This document shows, in pieces, positions 48,639 through 51,709 of a DNA stretch of 64,000 nucleotides; position 1 is the stretch's first letter; every line of letters begins with the position of its first letter. Source of the stretch: Phaeocystidibacter marisrubri (GTDB lineage: Bacteria; Bacteroidota; Bacteroidia; Flavobacteriales; Schleiferiaceae); contig NZ_WBVQ01000003.1 of assembly GCF_008933165.1 (NCBI RefSeq), forward strand, positions 186,001 to 250,000, in the 5' to 3' direction. Both the position numbers and the translations under genes were made by a program. The notes beneath the pieces are model-generated. The model had not been told where the DNA came from and searched no databases. It was given only the letters and a program-made list of their open reading frames with translations.

Positions 48639-49337
48639 TTGGAGATTAAAGAAACTATATCGTTTCTATCTTCTAGTATCCAATTTTGCTTATTTGCAAT
48701 GTTGGTGATTCTTCCTATCCAATGGATACGCCATCGCACAGTTAGTTGGCCTGTATTAGGCACTTTCCTCTGGATTTCTATCTGTGACATGGCGTCCTTT
48801 TGGATGGGGTATTATGGTATTTTTTCCTTTGTTATCCGATTTCTTTACGGTCCAGGAGCTATTCTCGCCTACTATATCGCCTTTGGTGTTTCTATTCAGC
48901 ACAAAAAGCGGTTTGCCATCACAACCATTCTCGCTTTTCTTGGATGTTTCATCATCATCGGACATACGTTCTTTGTGTATGGAATACATCGAACGGGTTT
49001 ATGGACGAGTATTATTCCTTATGCTGTCACCACTCCAGTGATCATTTCTATGGGGCTCTTGTTCGATTTGGACATACTGCTAAGTGATCGTCCGAGCAAT
49101 CGAGATGTGAGAGGCATGGTGTGGTTGAATAGAGCTTGGATGCTCTACTTTGCTTTGGGATATTTAGGTTGGGGCATGCAAGGGTTTGGCCTGATGGTGA
49201 GCGACGAAGACTATGAATCTCAGTTTCGCTTATTCAGGCTTATCTCATTGGCGATGGGCTATGCGGTTTTGACTGTTATCGGAATCTACGCTGCCTTTAA
49301 ATTCAATTTGAAAAAAGAGTGGAAGACGATGAACTGA
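48639..49337 (+). CDS. Multi-helix membrane protein, uncharacterised
   Basis: An approximately 232-residue integral membrane protein with six to seven hydrophobic segments (about 10-28, 36-55, 60-85, 93-112, 124-143, 168-185 and 200-222). I do not recognise the family; a 7TM-type sensor domain is possible. The frame starts with a TTG at 48639, eight bases after the preceding stop; an ATG at 48699 would give a shorter protein lacking the first helix. Its end overlaps the kinase start by 19 bases, so the two are translated together and probably act together. Confidence 0.7.
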   Translation: MEIKETISFLSSSIQFCLFAMLVILPIQWIRHRTVSWPVLGTFLWISICDMASFWMGYYGIFSFVIRFLYGPGAILAYYIAFGVSIQHKKRFAITTILAFLGCFIIIGHTFFVYGIHRTGLWTSIIPYAVTTPVIISMGLLFDLDILLSDRPSNRDVRGMVWLNRAWMLYFALGYLGWGMQGFGLMVSDEDYESQFRLFRLISLAMGYAVLTVIGIYAAFKFNLKKEWKTMN

Positions 49338-50080
49338 TAAAAGTCCTTTTCCTTTTTGGGGGCGGTTTAATTACCATCCTTATTGTGATGATTGGCAGTA
49401 TCTATGCGCTCAGTCATTCCAGAAGAAAGGTCGTGGAAACCGAACAGGAAAAGGCTCGGATTCTGGTAGAAGAGCAGAACAAGCTATTGCGAGCTACCAT
49501 TGAGGGAAGTGAGCGCGAAAGGAAGATGATATCTGAGGAGTTACACGATCAGATCAATGCGCAACTTACGGTAGTTAGAATGGCTGTTGCCCAAAACGGT
49601 GGGGACAATTCTAGCGCGCTGGAAACCCTAGATGCCACCATTCAAGACCTGCGTTCCATCAGTAGGGAATTAATGCCTCCTGTTTTAGAGCGATTTGGTT
49701 TGTTAGATGCTTTGGACGATTTGTTTGATCGTGTTGAATCGCAAACCGGACTTGCGATAGAATTTGAAGCTCCTGAAGAATGGGTAGAGTTCAAGGTAAA
49801 CCGCGATTTGGCGTTGTACAGAATTCTTCAAGAGTTTATCCAGAACACCTTAAAATACGGTCAGGCCAAACAGATTTGTGTGAAAGTTGACATTGTGGAT
49901 AACACAGTAAATTTCTCCATAACGGATGATGGTGTAGGCTTTGACATGAATGCAGTTGACGCTGGTCTTGGTACACGAAATATCAAGTCGAGAGTGGAGT
50001 ACCTCAACGGATCCTACAAATTGTGGTCGGAGCCAGGCAAGGGCGTATCTTTACAAATGACCGTTCCATTAGAAGATTGA
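49319..50080 (+). CDS. Sensor histidine kinase, DesK/NarX-like HisKA_3 type
   Basis: A 253-residue kinase with one N-terminal membrane helix (about 10-31), a coiled linker, a HisKA_3 dimerisation domain with phosphoacceptor His76 in ISEELHDQINAQL, and an HATPase_c domain with QEFIQNTLKYG, ITDDGVGFDM and GLGTRNIKSRVEYLNG. The start GTG (49319) lies inside the membrane-protein gene. With only one helix it has little sensor of its own; the upstream membrane protein is the natural sensory partner (inference). The LuxR regulator follows after eight bases. Confidence 0.9.
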   Translation: MEDDELIKVLFLFGGGLITILIVMIGSIYALSHSRRKVVETEQEKARILVEEQNKLLRATIEGSERERKMISEELHDQINAQLTVVRMAVAQNGGDNSSALETLDATIQDLRSISRELMPPVLERFGLLDALDDLFDRVESQTGLAIEFEAPEEWVEFKVNRDLALYRILQEFIQNTLKYGQAKQICVKVDIVDNTVNFSITDDGVGFDMNAVDAGLGTRNIKSRVEYLNGSYKLWSEPGKGVSLQMTVPLED

Positions 50081-50088
50081 CTTTAGAC

Positions 50089-50751
50089 ATGAGCAAGGAA
50101 AAAATTCGCGTGGTTTTAGCCGAAGATCAACAGTTGATTCGTGCTGCGTTGGTCAATTTGATCAACAGTTTGATTGGAGTTGTCGTGGTGGCGGAAGCTT
50201 CCGATGGCGTTGAATTACTAAATATTCTGGATACCACCCCTTGTGATATTGTAATCACAGATATTCGAATGCCAAAAATGGACGGTATTGAAGCGGTTGG
50301 GAAAATTGCTGAATATCATCCTGAACTCGGTGTGATTGGCCTTTCTCAGTATGACGACAATGATATCATTGTAGAATTCATTCGAGCTGGTGGTCGCGCG
50401 TTCTTACTTAAGAATGCAGATCCTACAGAAGTTGAGCTAGCCATTGAGAAGGTTCATGAAACCGGTCAGTACCTGAATCAAAAAGTCAGTCAGTCGCTGT
50501 TTCAAAATAGCTTCAGAGCTCGTCGCCGTCGTAAGTCTTCATTATTGAGTGGTGTTACCGAAAGAGAGGTGGAGATTCTCAATCTTCTAAGCAAGGAACA
50601 CACCGCGGTTGAAATGGCGGAGAAGCTGAACATTTCATCTAGAACGGTAGAGAAGCACATTTCTCATTTGCATCAGAAGTTTGAAACCAAGAAGACCATT
50701 GGGCTAGTCTTATGTGCTATTCGTGAGGGTATCATCCAGATTGAAATGTAG
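50089..50751 (+). CDS. LuxR/NarL family response regulator
   Basis: A 220-residue regulator. The receiver has Glu/Asp at 12-13, phosphoacceptor Asp58 in VITDIRMPKMDG, and Lys in FLLKNADP; the C-terminal LuxR helix-turn-helix (about 155-215) has LSGVTEREVEILNLLSKEHTAVEMAEKLNISSRTVEKHISHLHQKF. The ATG at 50089, after the kinase stop, is used; the longer frame lies inside the kinase. It completes the two-component pair. A non-coding transcription unit begins downstream. Confidence 0.92.
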   Translation: MSKEKIRVVLAEDQQLIRAALVNLINSLIGVVVVAEASDGVELLNILDTTPCDIVITDIRMPKMDGIEAVGKIAEYHPELGVIGLSQYDDNDIIVEFIRAGGRAFLLKNADPTEVELAIEKVHETGQYLNQKVSQSLFQNSFRARRRRKSSLLSGVTEREVEILNLLSKEHTAVEMAEKLNISSRTVEKHISHLHQKFETKKTIGLVLCAIREGIIQIEM

Positions 50752-50866
50752 TACAAGTACATTTTCTACCCCTTTCCGTACGTATTTCTACGTATTTTAA
50801 TTTTCTAAGTTGCTCAAATTCAGCACCTGCTTTAGTGGGGGTGGAAATTCATGTTTTATCCATTGG
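50752..50866. other. Intergenic segment after the response regulator gene
   Basis: Between the regulator stop and the promoter of the candidate RNA there are about 115 bases. It holds a repeated ACGTATTT (CGTACGTATTTCTACGTATTTT) but no gene, tRNA or terminator hairpin that I can see. Confidence 0.6.
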
Positions 50867-50874
50867 TACATTTG
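50867..50874 (+). promoter_or_regulatory. Probable -7 promoter box of the candidate non-coding RNA
   Basis: TACATTTG is an exact TAnnTTTG match in a gene-free region; a start site about six bases downstream (near 50880) would produce an RNA ending at the terminator 51067-51099. No TTTG is seen nineteen bases upstream. Confidence 0.5.
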
Positions 50875-50879
50875 AATCA

Positions 50880-51099
50880 GTCAAATAATGCTATTGGGAT
50901 AATATCAGATGAGCACTCCGATTAGACAGTCCAACCAAACTAGGTACAGAATAAAGCATCCTGTACTCGTTCGGAGTGTTCGCTGGTCAGTCAGTATTAA
51001 GCGAAACGCAATTCCTGATAGTTATTAATTTCTCTTGCGCAGGGGGAATCTAGTACCCCGTCTCTCAAGGCCGATTTCACCTAGAATCGGCCTTTTTTT
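50880..51099 (+). ncRNA. Candidate structured non-coding RNA, about 220 nt
   Basis: A gene-free region with its own -7 box and terminator holds nested inverted repeats. Outer: AATAA-tg-CTAT (50884-50894) pairs with ATAGTTATT (51018-51026). Inner: GAGCACTCCGA (50911-50921) pairs with TCGGAGTGTTC (50971-50981) over 11 bp with one G-U. Innermost: GGTACAG / CTGTACT (50943-50949, 50961-50967). A small GCG-AAA-CGC hairpin (51001-51009) and GGGG/CCCC (51042-51059) follow, then the terminator. The long rod with a large internal loop is reminiscent of 6S RNA, but I cannot confirm it. Flavo-1-type RNAs are another possibility. Alternatively it could be the 3' UTR of the response regulator mRNA. Confidence 0.55.
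51067..51099 (+). terminator. Intrinsic terminator of the candidate RNA
   Basis: Stem AAGGCCGATT (51067-51076) pairs with AATCGGCCTT (51085-51094) and runs into seven T. The T-run overlaps the stop codon of the convergent XRE gene. Confidence 0.9.
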
Positions 51100-51463
51100 A
51101 TTTCAAGCCTTTCTTAATCGACTCGATAATTGCGCTTTTTGTGTCCTCAGTTAACTGATCAACCTTCTCGAGATGGACGTGGATGTGTACTTGTTTGTCT
51201 TTCCCGAGGTAGGGAGACTCGGACTCTAGCGAGACTTCTAGTTCCGATTCAGAACGGAGGATTAAGGAATATTCTGTGAAGAAGTCGTAGTTCAAACACC
51301 TTGAAATTTCCAACAAAAGTTGCGTGTCAATGGTGTCTCTCTTAAAGATGTTGTGAACGTTCTGCCTCGTCTTGTGGATCATGCGTGCAAACTCGGAAGG
51401 CTTCAATCCAATTTCTTCCGTTCTCGCTTTAATGAGTTCTCCTATTTTAAGAGTATCCGACAT
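51098..51463 (-). CDS. XRE-family helix-turn-helix regulator
   Basis: A 121-residue DNA-binding protein. An N-terminal HTH_3 domain spans about 5-60 (IGELIKARTEEIGLKPSEFARMIHKTRQNVHNIF), followed by ISRCLNYDFFTEYS, then a C-terminal acidic helical part (about 70-121) rich in Glu/Ser, with HIHVHLEKVDQL. Such short regulators are common in flavobacteria; their targets are usually unknown. The ATG at 51463 is preferred to the seven-codon extension. Both flanks hold plus-strand candidate RNAs. An imperfect inverted repeat (acgacagatt / gatttgtcgt, 51523-51532 and 51549-51558) upstream could be its operator. Confidence 0.85.
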   Translation of the reverse strand: MSDTLKIGELIKARTEEIGLKPSEFARMIHKTRQNVHNIFKRDTIDTQLLLEISRCLNYDFFTEYSLILRSESELEVSLESESPYLGKDKQVHIHVHLEKVDQLTEDTKSAIIESIKKGLK

Positions 51464-51584
51464 GAACAAGGTTGTTATTAACACGTAAAAAGTGCTTTAA
51501 CAAACATGTCCAGTTTTGTTTTACGACAGATTGGAATAATGTCCGATTGATTTGTCGTGATGTGTAATAATATTTTACTAAATT
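51464..51584. promoter_or_regulatory. Divergent control region between XRE gene and candidate RNA
   Basis: Contains two ATGTCC half-sites 33 bases apart (51506-51511 and 51539-51544), an imperfect inverted repeat ACGACAGATT / GATTTGTCGT, and on the plus strand TTTG (51551-51554), 16 bases, TATTTTAC (51571-51578), a weak promoter-like pair for the RNA to the right. No coding sequence. Confidence 0.4.
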
Positions 51585-51709
51585 GAAGATAGGATGCGGC
51601 TTTGAATGATGACCTCTTCAGCTTGCTCCCACTGGTGTCACCTGAAGCGTGGTAACTTCAGGTGTTTTGGTTAAGCGTTCCCAGCACTCCTTTGTTGGGA
51701 ACGTTTTTT
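51585..51709 (+). ncRNA. Candidate small RNA, about 125 nt
   Basis: A gene-free stretch ends in two strong plus-strand hairpins: CACCTGAAG / CTTCAGGTG (51639-51647 and 51656-51664, nine perfect pairs, followed by TTTT), and the terminator 51675-51709 with a T-run. No plus-strand gene lies upstream that these could terminate (the gene to the left is on the minus strand), so a separate short transcript is implied. The 5' end is uncertain. Confidence 0.45.
51675..51709 (+). terminator. Intrinsic terminator of the candidate small RNA
   Basis: Stem CGTTCCCA (51676-51683) pairs with TGGGAACG (51696-51703), extended by a G-T pair, followed by a run of six T which overlaps the stop codon of the convergent lipoprotein gene. 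Confidence 0.85.

Follow-up and report, generated by a model that had tools for sequence, protein, structure and literature searches.

What is encoded at positions 50867–51099 of the window, the 64,000-nucleotide stretch of the Phaeocystidibacter marisrubri genome analysed here (contig NZ_WBVQ01000003.1, positions 186,001–250,000, forward strand)? A sequence-only reading had taken the region for a probable structured non-coding RNA of about 220 nt, with a shape recalling 6S RNA, in a gene-free stretch opened by a -7 box. Comparison with two congeneric genomes (G001 and G002; the genus provides three of the 88 family genomes searched) points instead to a small-protein gene, which very probably yields an mRNA of ~220 nt that is probably under regulator control and carries a conserved 3'UTR. 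This reading follows from the place of an ORF and its coding pattern, the fixed spacing of an upstream repeat, an invariant 3'UTR and base pairs that are not conserved.

The two ends of the unit are where they had been placed before. The consensus -7 promoter box, TACATTTG, is present at 50867–50874 (+ strand), is kept as TAYATTTGA in all three genomes of the genus, and fits TAnnTTTG, the flavobacterial consensus at -12 to -5 (PMC9723704), so that transcription would be expected to start near 50879. It is the sole TAnnTTTG on either strand of the 3271-base locus (L001), where 2.3 are expected by chance; a scan with the E. coli-type sigma-70 consensus, which differs from the Bacteroidota type of the box found here, gave one site against 1.0 expected. 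The unit closes with an intrinsic terminator (51067–51099, + strand), a strong 11-bp stem at 51067–51094 followed by T's, and a hairpin is likewise placed in both relatives. Between G001 and G002, 12 of 13 terminator pairs hold and 8 are altered on both sides; the P. marisrubri terminator aligns poorly with these two (5–7 pairs hold), and each genome has one. Conservation of both ends in three of three species supports a discrete transcript of ~220 nt with its own promoter and terminator: RNA polymerase would start at TACATTTG and stop at 51067–51099.

A conserved ORF whose substitutions follow a coding pattern takes up more than half of this transcript and speaks against both the gene-free surroundings and the non-coding nature assumed before. 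The ORF (50909–51028, + strand) has 39 codons and an ATG start, is shorter than the usual length cut-offs, and encodes the basic small protein MSTPIRQSNQTRYRIKHPVLVRSVRWSVSIKRNAIPDSY. ORFs of 38 and 39 codons lie at the equivalent place in G001 and G002. The upstream gene is common to all three genomes of the genus, and so is the downstream gene, barring an insertion in G002. Overall identity of the small protein is 36–41%, with a poorly conserved N-terminal half and a core near the middle, LxRSxRWSxxxKR, that is common to all three species. In these three genomes, the only ones on which the coding statistics are based, frame +1 is free of stops and is the sole frame that scores as coding: its BLOSUM sum is +98 vs. 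−43 (sd 29) in column shuffles, with 0 of 2000 as high, and 8 variable codons keep their amino acid vs. a shuffle mean of 2.2, a count of 8 being reached by 2 of 2000 shuffles. Within a 15-codon core, third positions differ 9–10 times per genome pair and second positions 1–2 times.

Ribosomes would accordingly be expected to translate 50909–51028 into a strongly basic protein of 39 aa bearing this core. The predicted product has a pI of 11.7–12.0 across species (11.7 in P. marisrubri) and a charge of about +7, and is hydrophilic (GRAVY −0.71 to −0.85). It has no match in Pfam, NCBIfam or PDB sequences, and its structure prediction was uninformative (mean pLDDT 59). A short ORF limited to one lineage and equipped with its own promoter and terminator would also fit a type I toxin whose antitoxin is an antisense RNA running across the ORF; we consider this extremely unlikely here, as a hydrophilic, basic protein of charge about +7 is not a membrane-spanning peptide and L001 has no opposite-strand TAnnTTTG box.

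If the transcript were instead a structured RNA that encodes no protein, 6S-like or of a new type, and the ORF a chance occurrence, the stable folds found in the three genomes would be accounted for. Folding of 50880–51099 gave −65.2 kcal/mol (z −3.44; none of 200 shuffles reached this stability), and all three transcripts, terminator included, are more stable than their dinucleotide shuffles (z −3.44, −4.04 and −2.34). The long-range pairing and stems described from the sequence do appear in the minimum free energy (MFE) structure (50886–50899 with 51013–51027; 50943–50949 with 50961–50967; 50904–50921 with 50971–50987, whose one bulge lies at the start-codon A), but outside a short hairpin and the terminator they are not conserved in the relatives. 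Of the 44 MFE pairs outside these two elements, 21 stay standard in G001 and 19 in G002 on an ORF-anchored alignment; converse projections of the relatives' folds keep 18–21 of 45–49 pairs, and each of the three species folds differently. The GGGG/CCCC hairpin is kept, yet its four pairs never vary. RNAalifold, run on an alignment of poor quality across the ORF, found 34 pairs; for 10 of these, at least one sequence carries a change at both paired positions, and the covariation term is just −0.66 kcal/mol. Within the ORF, the stems show no covariation, an outcome that the sequence-only reading itself had named as counting against a structured RNA. Set against the coding pattern, the species-specific folds (18–21 of 44–49 pairs kept), the small covariation term and the search results for known RNA families given below, a noncoding RNA is very unlikely. 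The small-protein gene would then be a clear case of a coding unit mistaken for a structured RNA on the basis of a stable fold in one genome, and the comparison with two relatives brought out coding evolution and no covariation.

Some selection at the RNA level is nevertheless possible within the coding transcript, as the folds are better than shuffles in all three species and better than recodings in two: synonymous recodings were equally stable in 2.5%, 0.5% and 30% of cases in the three species (400 recodings each). The start region of P. marisrubri is more paired than 399 of 400 recodings, a point on the side of a noncoding RNA; only 0.25% of recodings reach this pairing, and the values in the other two species are 27% and 25%. 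Start-codon sequestration as a conserved control was considered and rejected as inconsistent, with mean unpaired fractions around the start of 0.27, 0.54 and 0.44 vs. means of 0.52, 0.59 and 0.52 in recoded sequences.

The resemblance to 6S RNA reduces to a length of close to 200 nt and, in P. marisrubri only, a rod-like fold. The rod of 6S RNAs is conserved and opens into a central bubble; here the relatives keep 19–21 of 44 pairs, and the region is coding. A search of the whole window with Rfam models at the gathering threshold found no family at 50867–51099, 6S and 6S-Flavo included, and its only two matches were tRNAs. Permissive searching of 50600–51300 gave seven matches (best E 0.12), all below the cut-off and taken as chance, the top three of which all overlap the terminator; neither 6S (RF00013) nor 6S-Flavo (RF01685) matched this interval even at E 10. 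RF00013 had no match anywhere in the P. marisrubri genome. 6S-Flavo, a Bacteroidetes RNA listed as sharing its function with a known class (PMC2864571), gave one sub-cut-off match in each of nine out of nine genomes tested (33.8–58.6 bits vs. a cut-off of 85). The P. marisrubri match (37.4 bits) lies outside the window at G000:C1:1403654–1403795, so that a 6S-Flavo-like candidate exists elsewhere in this genome. We infer that these sub-cut-off matches are true 6S RNAs. The Rfam cut-off may miss 6S RNAs of this bacterial family.

The most conserved part of the unit is its 3'UTR, in which pyrimidine-rich stretches stand on both sides of a hairpin with a variable loop. Block 1, AATTTCTCTTGCGCAGGGG (51027–51045, + strand), is a 19-nt run identical in all three genomes, the first two bases of which end the stop codon; the GGGG/CCCC hairpin (51042–51059, + strand) has an invariant stem and a loop of variable length and sequence; and block 2, CCCCGTCTCT (51056–51065, + strand), is a 10-nt run again identical in all three. 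As just 7 of 61 fourfold sites of the adjacent regulator gene are identical in all three genomes, with synonymous sites near saturation, such long invariant runs point to selection. Most likely, the 3'UTR acts at the RNA level, and the arrangement UCUCUUGCGCA-GGGG-loop-CCCC-GUCUCU would serve either the stability of the transcript or the binding of a protein or another RNA.

If the 3'UTR were itself regulatory, as a seed or a protein site and possibly processed out of the mRNA, the transcript would be a dual-function RNA that also codes for the small protein. The exceptional conservation of the 3'UTR and its pyrimidine-rich stretches around the variable-loop hairpin are in keeping with such a role, and UTR-derived small RNA candidates, together with many small ORFs, have been reported in Bacteroides thetaiotaomicron, with validation lacking for most (PMC7366714). 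However, the exact complement, TGCGCAAGAGA, of one 11-nt 3'UTR stretch has four matches besides the locus, none of them common to the three genomes, and a stability or termination element could also explain the conservation. We therefore treat a dual function as possible but rather improbable. The best-supported reading, a small-protein mRNA, shares with dual-function small RNAs a short transcript with its own promoter and terminator, a protein of <50 aa and a conserved non-coding part. SgrS/SgrT is an example of this kind. The present unit differs from known cases in that neither a sequence relation nor base-pairing targets are evident and the lineage is little studied. Translated small RNAs have been argued to be probably under-counted (PMC10339803). 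In Bacteroidota, small proteins and UTR-derived RNAs have so far been characterised in only a few cases.

Upstream of the promoter lie the genes of a two-component system, both on the + strand. A sensor histidine kinase of 253 aa (49319–50080; HATPase_c 7e-12, HisKA_3 2.7e-4, the latter below the curated cut-off) is followed by a NarL/LuxR-type response regulator (50089–50751; Response_reg 8e-24, GerE 1e-10), the start of which was picked from the alignment with relatives (80–82% identity) and which is the probable controller of the unit. Between regulator and promoter, the repeat TACGTATTTCTACGTA (50779–50794, + strand), a predicted regulator binding site, is nearly invariant in all three genomes; it has the core TACGTA-nTTC-TACGTA and is part of a near-invariant stretch, TACGTA-nTTC-TACGTATTTT, at 50779–50798. 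In the three genomes, 73, 73 and 74 nt separate the repeat from the -7 box. This near-constant spacing across otherwise poorly conserved DNA suggests an activator site held in fixed helix phase. Most likely, the binder of the repeat is the adjacent response regulator, the obvious candidate, and the kinase/response-regulator pair would control the small-protein gene by binding TACGTA-nTTC-TACGTA, which keeps a fixed distance to the promoter. The possible tie to the neighbouring regulator raised by the sequence-only reading is compatible with these data. In the literature searched, no paper brought TACGTA together with a response regulator in flavobacteria.

Allowing up to one mismatch, the three genomes contain 5, 4 and 3 copies of the repeat pattern, and the reversed control pattern has none. 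In P. marisrubri, two of the four further TACGTATTTCTACGTA-like sites precede similar genes for secreted-looking proteins (L158 and L167), which the same regulator may also target. One of these sites stands at a spacing of 45 to its TAnnTTTG box and the other is without an exact box, so the 73-nt spacing is not general. If real, the locus would offer a compact and testable unit of two-component system, fixed-spacing operator, small basic protein and conserved 3'UTR.

The unit has been seen only in this genus, in 3 of 395 genomes of the order for ORF and 3'UTR alike. DNA searches of 60 genomes at E up to 10 returned clear matches in the P. marisrubri genome itself and G001 (2.4e-13) and a weak but true match in G002 (3.8e-4), the remainder being noise from 0.009 upward. 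An ORF profile run against the 395 genomes gave three strong matches, which are its own source sequences; the next-best had E 0.008 and worse, with 142 genomes matched in all at E up to 5, and the only weak match inspected, in G065, fell in an unrelated coding region. Within the family, the exact 3'UTR pattern is confined to 3 of 88 genomes. A covariance model of the 3'UTR, with the 5-bp hairpin as its only pairs and the terminator left out, matched the three members of the genus among the 395 genomes, plus seven others at 24–29 bits; none of these seven stretches contains CTTGCGCA. Searches of IMG/VR and of plasmids gave no match. At E 1e-40 or better, the regulator is matched in 7 of 60 family genomes, at about 1e-141 in the three of the genus; the other four (5e-45 to 9e-41) look like paralogues. 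A single scan for the regulator in named genomes returned only relatives at ≤35% identity and was not used. It is conceivable, though we think it unlikely, that the unit is a genus-specific dual-function RNA of Bacteroidota, NarL-type-regulated, with the 39-aa basic protein as effector and a 3'UTR acting in trans or recruiting an RNA-binding protein, and that its 3' end doubles as a landing site for retron DNA.

The transcript is met from the opposite side by a convergent gene (51098–51484, − strand), the stop of which overlaps the T tract. It encodes a protein of 128 aa that by its sequence appearance is probably a small helix-turn-helix DNA-binding protein, with no Pfam match and 44–52% identity to the relatives' copies. 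In G002, about 1.9 kb is inserted between the 3'UTR and this gene. The insert carries the set expected of type VI retrons, namely RT_VI (5.6e-57, PADLOC), HTH_VI (1.4e-30) and a weak SP_VI (5e-4), which identifies it as one. The retron (L032 1765–3745, G002:C44) is flanked by two copies of the 3'UTR plus terminator, 66 bp and 89% identical, of which the left ends the small-protein mRNA and the right adjoins the convergent gene. Such flanking copies are what remains when an element inserts at a gene's 3' end and rebuilds that end, and the arrangement looks as if the 3' end of the small-protein gene had served as attachment site. No integrase was recognised in the stretch of the insert that was read, and among the papers matched on retron insertion sites, none was recognised as bearing on this case. 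The retron is a guest in one relative, absent at this site from the P. marisrubri window and from G001, and its landing at the 3' end is a separate, second point of interest. Past the convergent gene in the P. marisrubri window, at 51636–51706 (+ strand), two terminator-like hairpins were noticed by eye in tandem: TCACCTGAAG...CTTCAGGTG, and GTTCCCA...TGGGAAC followed by T's.
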